A stretch of 64,000 bases of DNA from Bifidobacterium breve. Lineage in GTDB: Bacteria; Actinomycetota; Acidimicrobiia; Acidimicrobiales; Ilumatobacteraceae. Below, piece by piece: positions 10,193 to 18,946 of this stretch (position 1 is the stretch's first letter; each line of letters opens with the position of its first letter). The stretch covers positions 62,001 to 126,000 of the forward strand of contig CAMCZG010000001.1 in the NCBI GenBank assembly GCA_945886445.1, written 5' to 3'. The notes below the pieces were generated by a model that saw only the letters and a program-made list of their open reading frames with translations, searched no databases and had not been told where the DNA came from. A program made the translations under genes and the position numbers.

Positions 10193-10879
10193 ATGTTCGA
10201 CGGTCATTTTCGTGAGCAGGTAGAACGTGCAGTGAAGCCAATGGGCGAGTCTTTGCGCAAGGTGGGTGTTACTCCCGATCTGCTCACGGTTGCCGGATTG
10301 CTCCTCGCGGTTGCTGCAGGAATATCTGTAGGTGCGGGTGCGTTACGTCTTGGCTTATTGCTTGTGATCTTGGCTGCGTTGCCCGACCTCCTCGATGGGG
10401 CAGTGGCTAAGGCCGGAAACACCGCTAGTCAACGTGGAGCATTTTTCGACTCGGTCATCGATCGTGTCACCGATGCATTGCTGCTCGGTGGTGTTGCCTG
10501 GTACCTGGCATCAAATGACAGTGCGCACATGTCGGTGTTGCCTTTTGCAGTCATGGCAGTGTCGGCAACTATTAGTTACGAACGTGCGAAAGCAGAATCG
10601 TTAGGTTTGCAGGCCAAAGGCGGGCTCATGGAGCGCGCCGAACGAATTATCTTGTTGTGTCTTGGTTTGTTGTTCGACAATTTACTTGTGCCCATTTTGT
10701 GGATCATGTTGGTACTCACGACAATTACTGCTGTGCAACGCTTCGTCAAGGTGTGGAAGCAAGCGGCAGTAGCGCCGGCAACAGAGGTAAAGATTGAAGA
10801 GCGTTTAGCACGCCGTGAAACAAAGTATGCGGTACGCCAAGAACGTCGACATTCCAACCGCCGTTCCACTTCGCGCTAG
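10193..10879 (+). CDS. pgsA: CDP-alcohol phosphatidyltransferase, PgsA1 / phosphatidylinositol phosphate synthase type
   Basis: Integral membrane enzyme of the CDP-alcohol phosphotransferase family. By context, it most likely makes phosphatidylinositol phosphate from CDP-diacylglycerol and inositol phosphate. The metal-binding signature is present as Asp65, Asp68-Gly69, Gly82, Asp86 and Asp90 (PDLLDGAVAKAG then GAFFDSVIDRVTD). The usual Arg after Ala72 is Lys73. About six membrane helices are visible. The C-terminus is long, basic and arginine-rich. It is followed after 8 bp by a PatA-like acyltransferase, as in mycobacteria, which supports the PI branch over phosphatidylglycerol phosphate synthesis. 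Confidence 0.88.
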   Translation: MFDGHFREQVERAVKPMGESLRKVGVTPDLLTVAGLLLAVAAGISVGAGALRLGLLLVILAALPDLLDGAVAKAGNTASQRGAFFDSVIDRVTDALLLGGVAWYLASNDSAHMSVLPFAVMAVSATISYERAKAESLGLQAKGGLMERAERIILLCLGLLFDNLLVPILWIMLVLTTITAVQRFVKVWKQAAVAPATEVKIEERLARRETKYAVRQERRHSNRRSTSR

Positions 10880-10887
10880 AGGGCACC

Positions 10888-11814
10888 TTGGCCACAACGC
10901 GTGAATCTGTCACCGATGCATTCACCGTTGGTTCGTATCGTCTTGCATCTGTATTGGCGAAGGTTTCGCCTGGACCAATGGCATATGGCGTAGCCAAACT
11001 TGTGGGTCATTTGGCTGCGGTGTCGCTGCAGTCGCGTCGAGCCATTATTGAACGACACATACGCCGTGTGCGACCCGACTATTCCGAATCGCAAGTGCGC
11101 AAGGCAACTCAAGGCGCCTTCGATAGTTACTCACGTTATTACGTAGAGAGTTTTCGCCTTCCATCTCTGTCTGCCGATGTTGTCGACGCGACCTTCACCC
11201 TCGACGGCTTTGACGCCATTACCGATTCTTTAAAAGATGGAAACGGGGCCATTCTTGCGTTGCCGCACCTCGGGGGTTGGGAGTGGGCCGGTCGTTGGCT
11301 GTGTGATCAGGGAGTAAAGACAACAGTTGTTGTAGAAGCCTTGCAACCTCCAGAACTTTTTGAATGGTTTGTGAGCCTAAGAACCAAGTTGGGAATGAAT
11401 GTTGTTCCTCTTGGACCAAATGTTGCGGGCGAAGTTTTGAGGGCATTGCGCAACAATGAAGTGGTGTGCTTGTTGTGCGACAGAGATCTACAAGGTGGAG
11501 GAGTGCCAGTCAATTTCTTTGGTGAAAGTACAACTCTTCCCGCAGGGCCAGTTACTTTGTCATTGCGTACCAATGCTCCCGTTTTTCCCGTAGCTGTATA
11601 TTTCACAGAGGCCTATAACGGACATCATGCAGTCATTCACCCGGCAATGCATTTCGAACGATCGGGAAAGTTGCGAGAAGACGTGCGAGTAGGCACACAA
11701 GCTCTTGCAAAAGAATTAGAAACACTTATTTGGGCAGCGCCAGAACAGTGGCATCTCTTTCAGCCAAATTGGCCGAGTGACCCCGGCTTTGTGGCGAAAA
11801 GCAATAACGCTTAG
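10888..11814 (+). CDS. patA: LpxL/HtrB-family acyltransferase, PatA-like
   Basis: Membrane-associated acyltransferase of the lysophospholipid/lipid A acyltransferase family. In mycobacteria the gene at this position (after pgsA, before pimA) acylates phosphatidylinositol mannoside. The catalytic HxxxxE motif is LPHLGGWEWAGRW, with His127 and Glu132; CLLCDRDLQGGGVPVNFFG further on is the typical second block, followed by LPAGPVTLS. Length is 308 residues. The start is TTG 10888 with AGAGGG just upstream; no ATG or GTG gives a better N-terminus. It is separated from pimA here by the arsenic genes and an LLM enzyme. Its end is 2 bp from the convergent arsR. Confidence 0.85.
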   Translation: MATTRESVTDAFTVGSYRLASVLAKVSPGPMAYGVAKLVGHLAAVSLQSRRAIIERHIRRVRPDYSESQVRKATQGAFDSYSRYYVESFRLPSLSADVVDATFTLDGFDAITDSLKDGNGAILALPHLGGWEWAGRWLCDQGVKTTVVVEALQPPELFEWFVSLRTKLGMNVVPLGPNVAGEVLRALRNNEVVCLLCDRDLQGGGVPVNFFGESTTLPAGPVTLSLRTNAPVFPVAVYFTEAYNGHHAVIHPAMHFERSGKLREDVRVGTQALAKELETLIWAAPEQWHLFQPNWPSDPGFVAKSNNA

Positions 11815-11816
11815 CG

Positions 11817-12170
11817 CTACGACAAAAATTCTCGTACTTCAGATAACGCTTGGGCGTTAACGGAATACCACACCCAGGTTCCGCGCTTTGTTCCAGTAAT
11901 CAGTGCAGCCTCTCGCAATATTTTGAGGTGATGGCTGATGGTGGGTTGAGACCTTTGCAATTCATCAACAAAAGAACATGCGCATACTTCTTGGCTAGGG
12001 TCACGGGCAATGAGGGTAAAAAGCTTGAGTCGAATGGGGTCACCTAATGCTGAAAAGACCTTGGCGAGCGTCACGGCATCTTTGTTGGTGAACGTTGATG
12101 TGCTTTGTGGTGAACAACATGCAGCAATGGCTGCGCGACGGGAAGTATGTGTTATATTGATAACTGTCAA
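11817..12170 (-). CDS. arsR: ArsR-family arsenic-responsive repressor
   Basis: Winged-helix metalloid sensor of 117 aa that should repress the divergent arsI operon until arsenite binds. The DNA-recognition helix is in VDELQRSQPTISHHLKILREA (69-89). Thiols are Cys18-Cys19 near the N-terminus and Cys63 and Cys65 (EVCACSF), resembling the actinobacterial ArsR type that uses an N-terminal Cys pair plus one Cys from the partner subunit, not the CVC-type motif on the recognition helix. The only canonical start before the Cys pair is TTG 12170, which lies inside the operator, so the message would be leaderless or nearly so. The start is therefore less certain than the gene. Confidence 0.88.
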   Translation of the reverse strand: MTVINITHTSRRAAIAACCSPQSTSTFTNKDAVTLAKVFSALGDPIRLKLFTLIARDPSQEVCACSFVDELQRSQPTISHHLKILREAALITGTKRGTWVWYSVNAQALSEVREFLS

Positions 12171-12177
12171 TATAACA
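12150..12177. promoter_or_regulatory. ArsR operator: perfect 11-bp inverted repeat
   Basis: TGTTATATTGA at 12150-12160 is exactly reverse-complemented at 12167-12177, with a 6-bp centre. It lies between the divergent arsR and arsI genes and covers promoter-like elements: TTGACA on the minus strand (12170-12165) and TTGATA on the plus strand (12157-12162), with TAATCA 17 bp further at 12180. This is the length and AT-richness expected of an ArsR/SmtB operator. Confidence 0.75.
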
Positions 12178-12211
12178 AATAATCACTGCTTTCACTAGCT
12201 CAGGAGCCTGT

Positions 12212-12685
12212 ATGTCACGAGTCCAACTCGCGCTCAACGTCGATGATCTCGATGCCTCAATTGCCTTCTATTCCGCAATGTTTCAAGTAGAGCCGCACAA
12301 GGTGCGTTCTGACTATGCAAACTTCATTGTTGACAACCCACCACTCAAACTCGTTCTCATTGCAGGCAAGGGCGAGCCCGGAACAATGAACCATGTTGGT
12401 GTTGAAGTAGAAACAACTGCTGAAGTGGTGCAGGCCGCTGAATTAGCTGAGACCGCAGGAATTGCCACCACATTGCAAGAAAAAGAGACCTGCTGCTACG
12501 CACTGCAAGACAAGGTCTGGATTCATGGACCCAACTTGTCGTGGGAGATCTACACGGTGCTCGACGAAAATGCGGGCGCAGGCTCAATGGCAATGCCACG
12601 CCAAGCGCTACAACCAATCGATTTCATTGGCGTATCTGGCGATGCTTGCGCGCCTGGAGATGCTTGCTGCCCAACGGAGGCGTGA
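12212..12685 (+). CDS. arsI: ArsI/CadI-family metalloenzyme (vicinal oxygen chelate fold)
   Basis: Member of the ArsI/CadI family. ArsI enzymes are Fe(II)-dependent dioxygenases that break the carbon-arsenic bond of trivalent methylated or aromatic arsenicals; CadI is a metal-induced relative. The 157-residue protein keeps the expected metal ligands (Gln5, His61, Glu112) and the substrate-thiol pair Cys94-Cys95 in KETCCYALQDKVWI. An extra cysteine-rich tail, GDACAPGDACCPTEA, ends the protein. ATG 12212 is preceded by AGGAG at 12202-12206. It is the first gene of the operon, one base away from the channel gene. The substrate (organoarsenical or other) is inferred from residues and the neighbouring arsR and arsC. 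Confidence 0.85.
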   Translation: MSRVQLALNVDDLDASIAFYSAMFQVEPHKVRSDYANFIVDNPPLKLVLIAGKGEPGTMNHVGVEVETTAEVVQAAELAETAGIATTLQEKETCCYALQDKVWIHGPNLSWEIYTVLDENAGAGSMAMPRQALQPIDFIGVSGDACAPGDACCPTEA

Positions 12686-12686
12686 A

Positions 12687-13361
12687 ATGAAAACGTTGCA
12701 CCGTCGCTTGCTGGCCGAGTTTTTGGGAACGTGTGGAATTGTTCTTGTTGTTGTTGGATCCGGAATTATGGCGGAACGACTATCGCAAGACGTCGGCGTT
12801 CAATTACTAGCCAATACCATTGCAACAACGGGTGGCTTGCTTTTGTTCATTTATCTTTTCAGTTCAATTTCTGGTGCGCAGTTCAACCCAGTAGTAACGG
12901 CTACTGAATATTTCGACAAGCGAATCAACGCTGGCGATGCCATCCAATATGTTGTTGCGCAAGTAGCAGGAGCTTGTGCTGGAGCAATGATTGCCAACAT
13001 TATGTTTTCACTCGATGTGGTGAACCTTTCCACCAAGGTGCGTTCGGGCGTTCCGCAGTATGTAGGTGAGGTAGTAGCTACTGCAGTGTTAATTCTGCTC
13101 ATTCAAGGTTGCATTCGCACAAACAGAACCACGGCAATTCCGTACTTAGTTCCTGCATGGATCACCGCTGCGTATTGGTGCACGTCTTCAACCAGTTTTG
13201 CTAATCCGGCAGTGAGCGTGGGGCGTTCTTTGTCGAACACTTTTGCTGGTATTCGCCCGAGTTCCGTACCGATGTTTGTTGTTGCACAGTGCATTGGTGC
13301 AGTTGTTGGTGTGCTTTTGGCCCGCGGTGTTTTTATAGACGAAAGCAAGTCATCACAATGA
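12687..13361 (+). CDS. MIP-family channel (aquaglyceroporin-like, AqpS-type context)
   Basis: Six-helix channel protein of 224 aa. Two pore half-helices carry the family motif: SGAQFNPVVTA with Asn67 (NPV, not NPA) and SFANPAVSVGR with Asn173-Pro-Ala and the selectivity-filter Arg180. In the ars operon of Sinorhizobium an aquaglyceroporin (AqpS) lets arsenite formed by ArsC diffuse out, and actinobacterial channel-ArsC fusions are also known; the same role fits here because no ArsB or Acr3 pump is present. That role is inference. ATG 12687 has GGAGG at 12676-12680, and its TGA overlaps the arsC start (ATGA). A longer in-frame upstream region overlaps arsI and is rejected. Confidence 0.88.
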   Translation: MKTLHRRLLAEFLGTCGIVLVVVGSGIMAERLSQDVGVQLLANTIATTGGLLLFIYLFSSISGAQFNPVVTATEYFDKRINAGDAIQYVVAQVAGACAGAMIANIMFSLDVVNLSTKVRSGVPQYVGEVVATAVLILLIQGCIRTNRTTAIPYLVPAWITAAYWCTSSTSFANPAVSVGRSLSNTFAGIRPSSVPMFVVAQCIGAVVGVLLARGVFIDESKSSQ

Positions 13362-13777
13362 GTAAATCATTTGGCATTCTTTTTTTGTGTGTGCACAATG
13401 CTGGTCGGTCTCAAATTGCTGCTGCTTTAACGCGCAGCTTGGCAAGTGCAAATGTTGTGGTTTTGTCAGGCGGTTCTGCGCCTGCGAGCAGCGTGAACCC
13501 AATGGCGCTGGCCGCAATGGAAGAGTTGAGCATTTCACTTGCCGACGAACAACCGAAAAAGTGGACCATGGAGATGTTGCACGAAGTAGATGTGGTCATC
13601 TCAATGGGCTGTGGCGATGACTGCCCGATTCTGCCAGGAAAAGAACGTCTCGATTGGGAAATTACAGACCCCGCCGGACAAGACCTCAATTTTGTGCGCG
13701 GTGTACGCGATGAAATTCGACTTCGTGTAGAAGATTTTCTTCGAGAACGCAGTTTGTTAGCTATACAAAGCAATTAA
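13358..13777 (+). CDS. arsC: Arsenate reductase, low-molecular-weight phosphatase fold
   Basis: Reduces arsenate to arsenite in the cytosol. The 139-residue protein has the P-loop CVHNAGRSQ with nucleophile Cys11, the general acid Asp104 in TDPAGQ, and a GCGDDCP segment with Cys85 and Cys89 that could form the relay disulfide used by thioredoxin-coupled actinobacterial ArsC. Mycothiol/mycoredoxin coupling is an alternative because mshC is present in the window; sequence alone does not decide. The start overlaps the channel stop (ATGA). The 3' end overlaps the convergent LLM gene by 21 bp. Confidence 0.9.
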   Translation: MSKSFGILFLCVHNAGRSQIAAALTRSLASANVVVLSGGSAPASSVNPMALAAMEELSISLADEQPKKWTMEMLHEVDVVISMGCGDDCPILPGKERLDWEITDPAGQDLNFVRGVRDEIRLRVEDFLRERSLLAIQSN

Positions 13778-14680
13778 TTCATTAATTGCTTTAGCTTGGC
13801 CGCCTGTAGTTGAAGACATCACAGCAATAGGGGTAACGCCGGTTGCGTACCACGCTGCAATTCCTTCACGTACACGGTCTGCAGACCCGCTGAGCGTGCA
13901 GTCATCAAGCCATTTGTTGCTCATGGCGCTCGGTATTTCATCTCGTTTTCCTGCAGCCAGGAGCACCTCAACAGCATCCATTTCTTCTTGGTAGCCAGCT
14001 TCGCGCCAATAGTTCCGGTAGTTCGGCAAAGTGACGTAACCAGTGAGGGTTTTTCGATTAATTGCACGAGCCGCATCAATGTCGTCATCAATCACTGTAG
14101 GAATCATGTTCGATAGAAAAAATGCTGATGGTAAGTGTGCTTCATTGCGTTTGAGTTGAGCGGGTGTGAAGCTCAAAGAGGCATTAGCCCAAATTGCTCC
14201 ATTGCCGATCTCGCCAGCAAGTTGGAGCATCTTGTCGCGCAGTGCAGCTAGGTAAATAGGTGGCAGCGCGCCTGAGAACTTTTCCTGAGCGCGCATGGCC
14301 TCTACGTAGTTGCGAATATCAGACAGCGGTTTTCCTGTTTCCACACCCAGACGTTGAACAACAGGGCCATGACTGACGCCAATGCCGAAACCAAATCGTC
14401 CGCCTGACACTTCATGAATGTGGGCGGCAGTGTTCGCGGCCTCAACAGGGTGGTTGTAGTAGATGGGTTGGATCGAGGTCCAGTACCGCAGTGTGGAGGT
14501 GGTGTGGGCAAGAGATACGCACAGACCCATGGTTGCACCCAGGCTGGGGCAAGCAAGTCCGGCAAAGCCAAATGAATCCAAGCGACTGGCTAACTCCAAA
14601 ATAGTGGAGCGTTTTGTTGGGCTCGCAACAAGCGAAACCGCAGGAAGGCCCGTTGACGGAAGAGAATCATGCAAAGTCAT
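13757..14680 (-). CDS. LLM-class F420-dependent oxidoreductase
   Basis: Luciferase-like TIM-barrel enzyme, 307 aa, of the group that in actinobacteria usually uses F420 instead of FMN. Visible features: GFAGLACPSLG near residue 37, the barrel segment EVSGGRFGFGIGVSHGPVV (residues ~90-108), which contains the typical SGGRFxxGxG loop, LPPIYLAALRDKMLQLAGEI, and a C-terminal LSGSADRVREGIAAW. Substrate unknown. Start ATG 14680 (MTLHDSLPSTGLP) is supported by a -10-like TACCGT 6 nt upstream; longer forms run into pimA. It is transcribed toward arsC and overlaps its end, and is divergent from pimA with 60 bp between them. Relation to arsenic is not evident. Confidence 0.85.
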   Translation of the reverse strand: MTLHDSLPSTGLPAVSLVASPTKRSTILELASRLDSFGFAGLACPSLGATMGLCVSLAHTTSTLRYWTSIQPIYYNHPVEAANTAAHIHEVSGGRFGFGIGVSHGPVVQRLGVETGKPLSDIRNYVEAMRAQEKFSGALPPIYLAALRDKMLQLAGEIGNGAIWANASLSFTPAQLKRNEAHLPSAFFLSNMIPTVIDDDIDAARAINRKTLTGYVTLPNYRNYWREAGYQEEMDAVEVLLAAGKRDEIPSAMSNKWLDDCTLSGSADRVREGIAAWYATGVTPIAVMSSTTGGQAKAINELIALYS

Positions 14681-14686
14681 GACGAG

Positions 14687-14692
14687 ACGGTA
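14687..14692 (-). promoter_or_regulatory. Candidate -10 box of the LLM gene (leaderless)
   Basis: TACCGT on the minus strand ends 6 nt before ATG 14680. It supports this start over longer upstream ones. Confidence 0.45.
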
Positions 14693-14728
14693 CCCGATAC
14701 TCGCTACCGTAGAGATGTGTCGGACCAA

Positions 14729-14734
14729 GATAAT
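14729..14734 (+). promoter_or_regulatory. Candidate -10 box of pimA (leaderless)
   Basis: GATAAT (one mismatch to TATAAT) ends 6 nt before ATG 14741, in the 60-bp gap shared with the divergent LLM gene. Confidence 0.4.
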
Positions 14735-14740
14735 GCCCCC

Positions 14741-15946
14741 ATGCTGCGCATTGGCATGATGTGCCCGTACAGCCTGTCGTTGCCCGGAGGCGTGCAAATG
14801 CAGGTTCTCGGTTTAGCCCGTGAATTGCGGGCGATGGGCCATGAGGTGCGTGTGCTTGGGCCGTGTGATGGTGCACCACCAGAACCATTTGTCACTCCGT
14901 TGGGCAAGAGCCTTCCCACTGCAGCGAACGGTTCAGTAGCCCCCATCGCTCCCGACCCATCTGCTGCGCTGCGTACCATTCGCGCCTTGAACGACGAAGC
15001 ATTCGATGTCATTCATCTTCACGAGCCCATTGCCCCAGGTGTCACCATGACGGCGTTGATGTTGCGTCTTGCACCCACGGTAGGAACATTCCACGCTGCA
15101 GGTGATTCGGCAAGTTATAAGTATGTCAACAAACCAAGTCGATGGCTTGCCTCGCGAATTGATATTCGTGTTGCAGTATCGAAAGACGCCGAACTTTTAG
15201 CAAGTCGGTATCTCGGTGGCAGTTATGAGATTTTGGGTAATGGCATTGAAATCAATCGGTATGTCAAAGAAGCGATGTCAACCGATAAGTACGCGAAATC
15301 AAAAACACCAACGATCTTTTTCTGTGGACGCCATGAGCCGAGAAAAGGTCTCGATGTTCTTTTGCAAGCCATGCAATTTCTTCCATCAGACGTTGAATTG
15401 TGGATTGCATCAGATGGCTCAGACACAGAACGTTTGAAGCGGGAATGGGCCCATGACCCACGTGCGAAGTGGTTGGGTCGCATTAATGATGATGAAAAAA
15501 TTCGTCGCATGCAGGAAGCAACCGTATTTTGTGCTCCTTCACTGCACGGTGAATCTTTCGGGGTGGTACTTCTTGAAGCAATGGCGGCAGGAACTCCTGT
15601 GGTGGCAAGCAATATTGCTGGTTATCAAAATGTTGCAACGCACGATGTAGATGCACTTCTCGTTGAACCAGGCGACGAGCGTGGTTTAGCAAGTGCGTTA
15701 GCCAAGGTGATGACCAATTCGCGTTTGTCGACACGACTCATTGAGGCCGGACAAATTCGAGTAGATGAGTCTTCTATGCGTCATCTCGCCGAGAAATATG
15801 TTGCTGTTTATCGCAGGGCCTTGGAAATGGAGCAAAATGGGCAAGGCGACGGCTATGCCCATCGTCAGTCGCCCGGCACATCGCAGGGTCGTTGGCGTCT
15901 GAGCCGTATGCTGGCATTCTTCAAACATCTACTCCTGCGGAAGTAA
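14741..15946 (+). CDS. pimA: Phosphatidylinositol alpha-mannosyltransferase (GT4)
   Basis: GT-B glycosyltransferase that puts the first mannose on phosphatidylinositol, on the cytosolic face of the membrane. The 401-residue protein starts MLRIGMMCPYSLSLPGGVQ, nearly the mycobacterial PimA opening, with the acceptor-site Gly-Gly-Val-Gln. Other landmarks: HLHEPIAPG near 88, the FCGRHEPRKGLDVLL donor-site Arg and Lys, and the EX7E region in GESFGVVLLEAMAAGTPVVASN. The start at ATG 14741 is chosen from the N-terminal match and the -10-like GATAAT 6 nt before it. The last ~35 residues are basic and not family-typical. With pgsA and patA it forms a split PI-mannoside cluster. Confidence 0.92.
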   Translation: MLRIGMMCPYSLSLPGGVQMQVLGLARELRAMGHEVRVLGPCDGAPPEPFVTPLGKSLPTAANGSVAPIAPDPSAALRTIRALNDEAFDVIHLHEPIAPGVTMTALMLRLAPTVGTFHAAGDSASYKYVNKPSRWLASRIDIRVAVSKDAELLASRYLGGSYEILGNGIEINRYVKEAMSTDKYAKSKTPTIFFCGRHEPRKGLDVLLQAMQFLPSDVELWIASDGSDTERLKREWAHDPRAKWLGRINDDEKIRRMQEATVFCAPSLHGESFGVVLLEAMAAGTPVVASNIAGYQNVATHDVDALLVEPGDERGLASALAKVMTNSRLSTRLIEAGQIRVDESSMRHLAEKYVAVYRRALEMEQNGQGDGYAHRQSPGTSQGRWRLSRMLAFFKHLLLRK

Positions 15947-15949
15947 AAT

Positions 15950-16924
15950 ATGGCCAATACCCAACAACGCAAGAAGCCCTCAACTTCTTCTCGCAACAGT
16001 TCTCCTCAGCGGCAACAGGCTCGCCCAGCCCAAAAGACTCCTGTCGCAAAACCAGTTCCAGCAAAAGTTGCTTCGCCTGCCAAAGCGGCTGTGGTCAAAC
16101 TGGAGAAGAGGTTTTCGCTCAAGCCATACTTTCTTCTTCTCGGGGCCTTTGTCGGCGTTCTTATTGGTGTGGTACCAACGCTTGTCTTAGGGCTTGTTGT
16201 GTTGCTCCCAATTTTCGTTGTCCTTGGGGCCGGTTTTGGTTTGGTTGTGTATCGGCGAGCAGTAGCGCAGAGTTTTTCTCTCATGAATTCCTTTGTGACC
16301 TCACAAGAAATTAACAGCGAAGATCATCCTCGACTCTTTAACTTGCTCGAAAGCTTGTGTGCGGTTTCTGGAGTATCGGTGCCAGTTGTTGGCGTAACAA
16401 CCGATGCAACTGTTAATGCTTATGTGGTCGCAGACCCACTTGGCGTTGAACAAAGCCACGTCGTTTTCACCGAGGGCGCATTGCGAGTCATGGAGCGCAT
16501 CGAATTAGAAGGTTTCGTTGCTGCATGTTTGGCAAGAATGAAATCTGGGCGACTCGAATTGCAAACAGAAACGGCTGGTGTAGTTGCAGCGCTTGGAAAG
16601 TTCATTCCTTCTGGTCTTGCACGCAAGGCACTTGAAGCGTGTTTCGTTACGCAAGATGTTTTTGATTCCGATATCAAGGCCTGCGGCATCACGCGCTTTC
16701 CGCCAGGCCTCATTGCTGCTTATGAGAAAATGTCTGCTGAGTCAACAGTCACATCGGGTGTGAATCCGTTGAATATCCATCTCTGGTTGGCAAACCCAAG
16801 GAGCACATTTTCAGCAAACTCATCGAATTCATCGGTAAGCGGTGCATCGTCTTCTACAGTTATAGGAAGTGAAGTTGTGCACCCTGCACTAGCCACGCGA
16901 TTGGCATTACTCCGGGAGATATAA
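15950..16924 (+). CDS. Membrane protein with a degenerate M48 metalloprotease-like domain
   Basis: A 324-residue protein. The first 50 residues are Lys/Pro/Ala-rich; two hydrophobic helices follow (59-77 and 79-100), as in HtpX-like proteases. The segment HPRLFNLLESLCAVSGVSVP (126-145), then NAYVVADPLG, VFTEGALRVM, ELEGFVAACLARMKSG, and the tail HPALATRLALLRE match the M48 order of landmarks. Where M48 enzymes have HEXXH, this protein reads ACLAR (192-196): both zinc histidines and the catalytic glutamate are gone. It is thus predicted to be proteolytically inactive and may be structural or regulatory. It begins 3 bp after pimA. The family call is my own alignment by eye. Confidence 0.7.
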   Translation: MANTQQRKKPSTSSRNSSPQRQQARPAQKTPVAKPVPAKVASPAKAAVVKLEKRFSLKPYFLLLGAFVGVLIGVVPTLVLGLVVLLPIFVVLGAGFGLVVYRRAVAQSFSLMNSFVTSQEINSEDHPRLFNLLESLCAVSGVSVPVVGVTTDATVNAYVVADPLGVEQSHVVFTEGALRVMERIELEGFVAACLARMKSGRLELQTETAGVVAALGKFIPSGLARKALEACFVTQDVFDSDIKACGITRFPPGLIAAYEKMSAESTVTSGVNPLNIHLWLANPRSTFSANSSNSSVSGASSSTVIGSEVVHPALATRLALLREI

Positions 16925-16927
16925 AAG

Positions 16928-18022
16928 TTGAAGTCATCAGTGAAGTTGAATATGCGTTTCATCTCAGCAGTTGTTGTAGCCGGCGGCTTAGCGCTCGCAG
17001 CCTGCGGCGGTAGTTCCACAACTTCCGATACCGAACCTGGCTATGGCGATGGTTCGCTGGTGTCAGAGCTCTCCGGGCCAACCACTACCTTGCCAGCGCC
17101 AGAGGTCATGCCACTTACTGGTTTGCCTATCACTGATGCAGCAACTTCCATTCGTCCTGCACTTGTTGCGAAGATCGATAATCATCCAGCGGCACGCCCG
17201 CAGTCGGGGCTCAATGCGGCCGACATTGTTTATGAAGAAAACGTAGAGCAACTCACGCGGTTAGCTGCAGTGTTTCATACCAATGCTCCAACAAGCGTCG
17301 GTCCTATTCGTAGTGGTCGCACACAAGACGTTGCGTTGTTCTCGGCTTATTTGAATCCGCTTTTTGTATGGAGTGGTGGCAACAGCAAAGTGTCCTCTGC
17401 AGTTAAGAATTCACCTTTGGTGAACATGGGCGCTTTGATTGCTTACAAACAAGGCGGTTATCGCCGAGAATCAGGTCGCAAGGCTCCGCACAACTTGTAT
17501 GCCGATGCCGAAAAAATATACACACTTACTCCAAAAGGTGCCTCACGCCCGCCGCAGCAATTTGTGTACCGTGGCGATAGCGATGCAATGCCAACTTCTG
17601 CATCGTCGTCCGCTGGCCTGCATCTCTCGATGGACGGTGTTCAAGTGTCGTGGATGTGGGACACAGCATCGTCGTCGTACATGCGATGGAGCGGCAAAGA
17701 TAAGCATCTCGATGCAGACAAAACTCAAGTAGCAGCGAAAAATGTGGTGGTCATGTACATGGTGTACAAGGCGAGCGCAGCCGATGTGCGCAGCCCTGAA
17801 GCACAAAGCGTGGGTGAAGGCGATGCATGGATCTACAGCAATGGATCGCTCGTCAAGGGCAAATGGGCGCGTGCCCTTGCAACCGATGTCTTCACCCTCA
17901 CCGATTCTGCAGGTGCTCCTGTCAAGCTCACACCAGGCAATACATGGATTGAACTTCCTCGCCTCAATAAGGGTGCCGATATTCCTACAGGGTCTGATCC
18001 AGCAAAAATCAAGTTCCCGTAA
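16928..18022 (+). CDS. DUF3048-family lipoprotein
   Basis: Secreted lipoprotein of 364 aa. The N-terminus has a basic start, the hydrophobic stretch FISAVVVAGGLALAAC and lipobox LAAC-G, so it should be lipidated on that cysteine, followed by a Ser/Thr-rich linker. The body matches the DUF3048 (YerB-like) family: LTGLPITDAATSIRPALVAKIDN, ARPQSGLNAADIVYEE, and PTSVGPIRSGRTQD, each a known block of the family. Function is not established. The start may be TTG 16928 (3 bp after the previous stop) or ATG 16952, which gives a more usual signal peptide (MRFISAVV). No regulator or partner is visible beyond the upstream membrane protein. Confidence 0.85.
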   Translation: MKSSVKLNMRFISAVVVAGGLALAACGGSSTTSDTEPGYGDGSLVSELSGPTTTLPAPEVMPLTGLPITDAATSIRPALVAKIDNHPAARPQSGLNAADIVYEENVEQLTRLAAVFHTNAPTSVGPIRSGRTQDVALFSAYLNPLFVWSGGNSKVSSAVKNSPLVNMGALIAYKQGGYRRESGRKAPHNLYADAEKIYTLTPKGASRPPQQFVYRGDSDAMPTSASSSAGLHLSMDGVQVSWMWDTASSSYMRWSGKDKHLDADKTQVAAKNVVVMYMVYKASAADVRSPEAQSVGEGDAWIYSNGSLVKGKWARALATDVFTLTDSAGAPVKLTPGNTWIELPRLNKGADIPTGSDPAKIKFP

Positions 18023-18055: not shown

Positions 18056-18946
18056 ATGACTTCTACATCTTCGAACTCCGGCTCAATGCGTGTGAATCGC
18101 GGTCTTGCAGAAATGCTGAAGGGTGGCGTCATCATGGATGTGGTCACGCCTGGGCAAGCAAAAATTGCTGAAGATGCCGGAGCATGTGCAGTCATGGCTC
18201 TTGAGCGCGTACCTGCCGACATTCGTCGCGATGGAGGCGTAGCTCGAATGAGCGATGTTGAGATGATTGAAGGCATTCAAGCAAGCGTCAGCATCCCAGT
18301 CATGGCGAAAGTTCGCATTGGTCATTTCGTTGAAGCACAAATTCTTCAATCATTAGGTGTTGACTTTATAGATGAGTCTGAAGTACTCACCCCGGCTGAC
18401 GAGGCTCATCACATCGATAAATTTAATTTCACTGTTCCTTTTGTATGTGGTGCTACCAACCTTGGTGAAGCGCTACGACGCATCAGCGAAGGTGCGTGCA
18501 TGATTCGTTCCAAGGGTGAGGCAGGAACAGGAAACATTGTTGAAGCAGTGCGGCACCTGCGCAGCATTATTGGCGATATTCGGCGCATCACGCAGGCCGA
18601 TTCTGCCGAATTATTCGATTGGGCAAAGAAACTGCAGGCGCCTTTGCCATTAGTGCAAGAAGTTGCAGAACTCGGGTGGCTTCCAGTGCCAATGTTCTGT
18701 GCCGGCGGCATTGCAACACCTGCAGATGCAGCGTTGGCAATGCAGTTAGGTGCTGAAGCAGTATTTGTTGGCTCAGGAATTTTTAAGAGTGATGATCCAG
18801 CCCCGCGTGCCCGAGCCATTGTTGAAGCAACTACTCATTTCCGTGATGCAAGTATTTTGGCAAAGGTCAGCCGCGGTTTAGGTGCCCCAATGACCGGCAT
18901 TGCGATGGATGAAATTAATCAGCGCTATGCAGAGCGTGGTTGGTGA
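18056..18946 (+). CDS. pdxS: Pyridoxal 5'-phosphate synthase subunit PdxS
   Basis: Synthase subunit of the DXP-independent vitamin B6 pathway. It builds PLP from ribose 5-phosphate, glyceraldehyde 3-phosphate and ammonia supplied by PdxT. The 296-residue barrel protein contains [20 protein letters not shown] near the N-terminus, the imine-forming Lys in [16 protein letters not shown], the second lysine in [18 protein letters not shown], and the [17 protein letters not shown] and FVGSGIFKS phosphate-binding segments. Length is standard. pdxT follows after 25 bp, and together they make the 12+12 synthase-glutaminase complex known for this family. Confidence 0.97.

Follow-up and report, generated by a model that had tools for sequence, protein, structure and literature searches.

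The closest described counterpart of the protein studied here is HtpX, an M48B metallopeptidase that is linked to LemA in relatives, and two other members of the M48 class have retained roles without peptide cleavage. BepA/YfgC, an M48C protein with chaperone-like activity, is a precedent for an assembly role that is not wholly dependent on proteolysis, as its protease-dead variant E137Q retains part of the assembly function (PMC8423444). Similarly, catalytically dead ZMPSTE24 (M48A) keeps a function based on binding without cleavage, the restriction of viral entry (PMC9601121). Pseudoenzymes and pseudoproteases are already known as a kind, whereas the M48 case described below appears to be new, as do its recurrence and its link with lemA. 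Neither M48 nor HtpX is mentioned in a review on inactive homologues of metallopeptidases from 2024 (PMC11266112). Our literature search turned up neither an M48 pseudoprotease family nor this locus, and nothing relevant on LemA with HtpX.

The window, which is the whole stretch of 64,000 nucleotides that was analysed, encodes a pimA-linked HtpX/M48 pseudoprotease of 324 residues (15950–16924, + strand). The original prediction had described this protein as M48-like, with two N-terminal helices, an otherwise intact frame and Ala-Cys-Leu-Ala-Arg in place of the catalytic HExxH, and our analyses agree with it on each of these points. The open reading frame is uninterrupted, all of the M48 landmarks named in the prediction are found in its product, and translation together with an alignment of 128 syntenic copies places ACLAR at residues 192–196 (codons 16523–16537, +, inside the interval 16505–16540 first proposed), with R196 at the position of the second zinc-binding His. 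The third zinc ligand is gone as well. The former third-ligand motif RExxAD now reads DVFDSD (residues 236–241; 16655–16672, +), in which the Glu aligns at V237, one residue before F238, and Asp241 is retained. The non-catalytic core motif TRFPPGL (residues 248–254; 16691–16711, +) is kept, its Thr, Arg and first Pro being found in 97, 95 and 100%, respectively, of 80 degenerate copies. The two membrane helices were recovered, both as model helices and by hydropathy, at residues 58–80 and 85–115 (16121–16294, +). They are preceded by a basic, Pro/Ala-rich and disordered N-terminal tail (residues 1–51; 15950–16102, +; pLDDT mostly <50), a trait of a subgroup that is also present in relatives of 82–97% identity. 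Alignment and hydropathy further revealed that the TM3–TM4 hairpin is absent after the old active site, the stretch from that site to the third ligand comprising 38 residues versus 71–79 in nearly all intact copies (65 in one), and hydropathy detected no TM-like segment in the hairpin region of 75 of the 80 degenerate copies.

The M48 likeness of this protein is beyond chance, as the NCBIfam HtpX model PRK04897 matched residues 61–215 with an E-value of 7e-20, although the score of 71.4 bits does not reach the equivalog threshold of 355. A Pfam M48 search of the 324-residue protein gave no match, and PF01435 was matched by only eight of 18 sampled members of the pimA-linked group, so that surveys relying on Pfam overlook many such proteins. 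In the AlphaFold model, for which 36 relatives were used (pLDDT 80.3, pTM 0.74), two long helices at the N-terminus are followed by an M48 core, and M48/M56 proteins were its top PDB matches in fold searches by Foldseek and VIA-align. The VIA-align matches included ZMPSTE24 (Z 12.5, rmsd 10.0 over 188 residues), Ste24p (Z 12.2, rmsd 4.3 over 183), 3c37 (Z 11.7, rmsd 3.6 over 153), BepA (Z 11.6, rmsd 3.2 over 155) and the HtpX domain (Z 9.0, rmsd 3.2 over 98). Structure prediction therefore returned the M48 fold that had been anticipated.

The order of genes at the locus is pgsA-like, lipid acyltransferase, pimA, pseudoprotease, DUF3048 and pdxS. The upstream PI/PIM context, which is syntenic in most loci, is formed by a PgsA-like CDP-alcohol phosphatidyltransferase (10193–10879, +; PF01066) and a PatA-like lipid acyltransferase (10888–11814, +; PF03279). 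The PimA-like GT4 mannosyltransferase (14669–15946, +; Pfam GT1/GT4 domains) ends 3 nt before the start of the pseudoprotease. Downstream are a DUF3048 putative lipoprotein (16928–18022, +; PF11258 and PF17479; lipobox-like LAAC), whose likelier start is the ATG at 16952, and pdxS (18056–18946, +), which is syntenic, served as a single-copy probe and anchors the downstream end of the conserved locus. An ars-like cluster (ArsR, glyoxalase-type, aquaporin and low-molecular-weight phosphatase; 11817–13777) separates the acyltransferase gene from pimA. The cluster, also seen at L046, L050, L052, L163, L165 and L166, is common to the genus and the sister genus, which shows independently that these loci are in register. 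A luciferase-like monooxygenase gene (13757–14797, −) overlaps the annotated start of pimA head to head, and the start codon of one or the other probably lies further inside.

Named relatives assign the window to Ilumatobacteraceae, in the order Acidimicrobiales. We surveyed this order with the pdxS probe, using the upstream region of ~115 genomes, most of them metagenome-assembled and one per species, together with 20 earlier loci. An M48 frame neighboring pimA was present in 118 of 118 loci with both pimA and pdxS in view. The 128 pimA-linked M48 copies comprised 37 with HExxH and a long hairpin, 11 with HExxH and a short hairpin, and 80 without HExxH, the latter being spread over 24 of the 41 sampled families. 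All ten members of the genus that have the locus (window included; identity down to 35%) are without HExxH, and the ACLAR/VCLAR/VGLAR group spans the genus. Consequently, a recent local error does not account for the substitution, and the ACLAR-type replacement is shared by close homologues genus-wide. What goes beyond the original prediction is a recurrent, order-wide conversion that is tied to the loss of lemA and in which two transmembrane segments are gone as well. Other classes of the phylum have the same slot with degenerate copies of their own (FCLGR, HCLVR and similar; L249–L252 and L254). Copies with HExxH and without the TM3–TM4 hairpin were seen at L034, L035, L038, L110, L117, L122, L140, L146, L150, L151 and L153, among others, and represent a possible intermediate or a distinct form of the protease. 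In another member of the phylum (L258; G317:C15), tandem M48 genes, both HELAH, are located after lemA and before pdxS, the second being without part of the hairpin region. Two records with full Ilumatobacteraceae synteny are titled otherwise, L169 (CAMBPP010000036.1) as Bifidobacterium breve and L175 (JAGWWV010000011.1) as Acidobacteria. Their loci are 97% and ~36–38% identical, respectively, to the window protein, and because of this identity and synteny the record names are very likely wrong.

Among six close relatives the dN/dS of the pseudoprotease was 0.13, far under 1, compared with 0.029 for pimA, 0.048 for DUF3048, 0.020 for pdxS and 0.079 for pdxT; by this measure it evolves ~4–5 times faster than pimA. 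In the next group of relatives its value was 0.28. The former catalytic helix (residues 191–232; dN/dS 0.053) is the lowest region of the protein bar its 12-residue C-terminal end, where the value was 0 from little data. G141, E187, D241 and P251 are invariant in the 80 degenerate copies (64 after down-weighting above 60% identity), in which T174, W279 and R317 are conserved at ≥98% and T248 and R249 at ≥95%. The M48 core is therefore maintained by purifying selection without its zinc site. Recent error or decay was ruled out by the intact frames and the dN/dS values, and the earlier description of a retained pseudoenzyme rather than a decaying gene is well supported, since the M48 fold was obtained, no close homologue has HExxH and dN/dS is well below 1.

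The state of the active site is associated with lemA, which at intact loci is the gene between pimA and htpX. We found lemA at all 36 testable intact long-hairpin loci of the sampled order (a 37th is truncated where its contig stops) and at all 62 testable intact named loci (the 63rd is likewise cut), versus only 16 of 80 degenerate loci. The spacing of the genes conforms to this, the M48 start lying >300 nt past the pimA stop at 36 of 36 intact-site, long-hairpin loci (median 583) and the degenerate frame following directly after pimA in 47 of 76 (median 4 nt). In independent pairs on the species tree, ~8 (8.4) of 14 pointed in the same direction and none in the opposite one (sign test, p ~0.004). 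Given these distributions, a pimA-lemA-htpX cluster has repeatedly been stripped to pimA-pseudoHtpX. Loss of lemA is not required for degeneration, because lemA persists at the 16 loci. Because some degenerate loci have lemA and no intact long-hairpin locus is without it, degeneration of the protease seems in most lineages to have preceded or coincided with the loss of lemA, although the order of losses can vary, since eight of the 11 short-hairpin HExxH loci have no lemA in view (at least one of them being cut by a contig end).

Individual genomes illustrate the same association. In the sister genus (G016) the flanks are as in the window, including the same ars genes, and the slot holds lemA-htpX(HELSH). 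Within genus g13, G186 has pimA-lemA-htpX(HELSH) (L291), and G024 has just the pseudo-copy at pimA, with a lemA-M48(HEMAH) pair elsewhere. No lemA adjoins the pseudoprotease in the window, where the M48 start follows 3 nt after the pimA stop, and the sole LemA of that genome is encoded on another contig, where the surrounding 11 kb contain no M48 frame. This remaining LemA (L289; G000:C3) is of a different type and stands beside an ORF that by eye resembles a TPM-domain protein, apparently as a separate LemA pair. The presence of DUF3048, which was also considered as a correlate of activity, had no clear association with it (25 of 37 intact and 57 of 79 degenerate loci).

Of the four site residues, none is left in 41 of the 80 degenerate copies and a single one in 33. 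In place of the second His there is Arg in 53 of 80, one of Arg, Gln and Lys in 70 and Tyr in none, despite Tyr being as near to His by mutation as the replacements found. This bias, which base composition and shared descent may also have influenced, suggests a preference at that position for a side chain that is positive or can form hydrogen bonds. On a species tree built from frame-checked proteins of the neighboring genes there were 16 changes of site state, 14 of them forced by well-supported branches, whereas the tree of the M48 gene itself groups the degenerate copies on long branches and forces only three to four changes. A single clade of all degenerate copies was rejected (AU p 0.016, subject to a long-branch caveat) and a clade of those in Ilumatobacteraceae was not (AU p 0.10). 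As judged from these trees, the losses are multiple, their number depending on whether the locus is vertically inherited: at least three to four by the gene tree, and 14–16 if it is. Partial states exist within lineages, such as HELAR in L100 versus HELSH in its congener L038, HELSR in L149, QQLSQ in L127 and L182, and HELAR with the hairpin retained in L247. L182 is the type strain Ilumatobacter nonamiensis YM16-303, in which the hairpin and the RETLAD third ligand are intact and lemA is not in view, and is a case of recent loss in a named type-strain genome.

We propose that the HtpX-type M48 protease gene of a pimA-lemA-htpX-DUF3048-pdxS cluster gave rise to this gene in place, and that the zinc site (HExxH and the third Glu), the TM3–TM4 hairpin and the neighboring lemA would have been lost in the ancestor of the genus. 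The remainder would be a two-helix membrane anchor with a folded, catalytically dead M48 core, expected by homology to be on the cytoplasmic side, the same side of the membrane as PimA. Such a protein is predicted to be unable to cleave peptides and probably acts by binding rather than cutting, as the gene has been kept and selected despite repeated loss of the cutting site. Potentially, it is a membrane adaptor or chaperone for the PI/PIM-synthesis enzymes encoded just upstream, PimA and perhaps the acyltransferase or PgsA, using a client-binding surface inherited from HtpX, whose clients the helices and M48 core presumably hold. That this is a retained pseudoprotease derived from a LemA-linked HtpX we regard as very probable. 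The account as a whole, from in-place descent through a dead M48 core to a binding role as PI/PIM adaptor or chaperone, we consider reasonably likely, and a specific PimA/PIM adaptor role is put forward tentatively on the basis of gene linkage. The earlier suggestion of a regulator or scaffold of envelope assembly may hold in view of the strict pimA linkage in all 118 loci. It is conceivable, at about the strength of the adaptor role, that a phylum-spanning LemA-HtpX pair at pimA was repeatedly converted, through change of the second His to Arg and loss of TM3–TM4 and lemA, to a non-catalytic adaptor of glycophospholipid synthesis. Against a tight, obligate partnership with PimA, evolution at ~4–5 times the dN/dS of pimA is looser than expected, and against in-place descent in every lineage, the gene tree groups many degenerate copies, perhaps by long-branch attraction.

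Other roles for the protein have to be weighed. As a decoy regulator like iRhom-type pseudoproteases, the dead protein might compete for, or hetero-oligomerise with, the other M48 protease of the genome and thereby restrain it. Candidates for such a target are widespread: another Pfam M48 gene was found in 67 of 70 degenerate genomes, it was intact (HExxH and RExxAD) in all 20 degenerate genomes checked, and the window genome has two (HELMH and HEMSH). However, the conserved linkage is to pimA rather than to the other M48 gene, and three degenerate genomes, one of them 100% complete (G203), are without any Pfam M48, making a decoy role rather unlikely. A second, active M48 may simply permit the loss of activity by making it tolerable, although the same three genomes indicate that a spare is not strictly needed. 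In the four long-hairpin-type genomes with a single Pfam M48 match, the pimA-linked copy is intact. We favor the adaptor or chaperone over the decoy, with the remaining probability split among other roles. A further reading is an enzyme with a new chemistry, based on a residue other than the zinc site; Arg, Gln or Lys at the second-His position in 70 of 80 copies and the invariant E187 and D241 do indicate a constrained pocket, but there is no common nucleophile (C193 gives way to Gly in L050 and to further residues in other copies) and the invariant polar residues are equally invariant in active relatives, so that we give this reading hardly any credence. A Cys protease was rejected in particular, as C193 is not conserved.

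A slowly decaying, functionless relic that has persisted by chance or because pimA and DUF3048 are transcriptionally coupled would be in keeping with evolution several times faster than that of the neighboring genes, the loss of the hairpin and lemA, and frequent invisibility to Pfam. Neutral decay would break frames and erase invariant residues, whereas the M48 frame is open in all 118 loci, residues outside the active site are invariant across dozens of families and the closest group and the one after it have dN/dS values of 0.13 and 0.28, respectively; a relic is accordingly very unlikely. The history of the gene could also differ from the one we propose, with a single ancient pseudoprotease paralogue having stood next to an active HtpX beside pimA and the two having then been lost differentially. 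The grouping of most degenerate copies in gene trees, apart from active copies of the same family, the tandem copies in L258 and the pseudo-copy of G024 that coexists with a lemA-M48 pair elsewhere all point in that direction. Nevertheless, the AU test rejected a single clade of all degenerate copies, if not the Ilumatobacteraceae one, the long branches of degenerate copies attract each other, active and dead copies stand side by side in none of the order's loci examined, and partial states occur within lineages (L100/L038, L149, L127, L182 and L247). We consider an ancient paralogue improbable, to about the same degree as the decoy.

The locus displays successive stages of conversion, from an intact protease with lemA, through an intact site without the hairpin and sites with one His lost (HELAR, HELSR), to full degeneration, and because so many stages can be seen it represents a natural experiment on the function of HtpX and LemA. 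To our knowledge little is known of what LemA does, and its strict tie to an intact protease offers a clue that can be tested. If the repeated, phylum-spanning conversion to a non-catalytic adaptor is correct, the ancestral HtpX would also have had a binding role at the pimA locus, and LemA would serve the proteolytic function only. That the M48 gene is always linked to pimA suggests a factor of PI/PIM metabolism outside mycobacteria that has been overlooked.

Compared to the known systems, the pseudoprotease is most like HtpX, with which it shares two N-terminal TM helices, the M48 core, the slot between pimA and pdxS, and the motifs GLC...G...P, NA, TxGLL, ExEG, AD...TRYPPGL, LW and R..LLREL. 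Unlike HtpX, it has no HExxH, third Glu or TM3–TM4 hairpin, usually no adjoining lemA, and an HtpX score of 71 versus 355 bits. With BepA/YfgC it has the M48 fold in common (Z 11.6), but BepA has a TPR domain and is an active protease, soluble in the periplasm, whereas the pseudoprotease is a membrane protein without a zinc site. Ste24/ZMPSTE24 is its best fold match, yet is eukaryotic, ~15% identical to it and a multi-TM CAAX protease whose zinc site is intact. The iRhoms, FtsHi and inactive metallopeptidase homologues have likewise kept their fold under selection after the loss of catalytic residues, but belong to other peptidase families.
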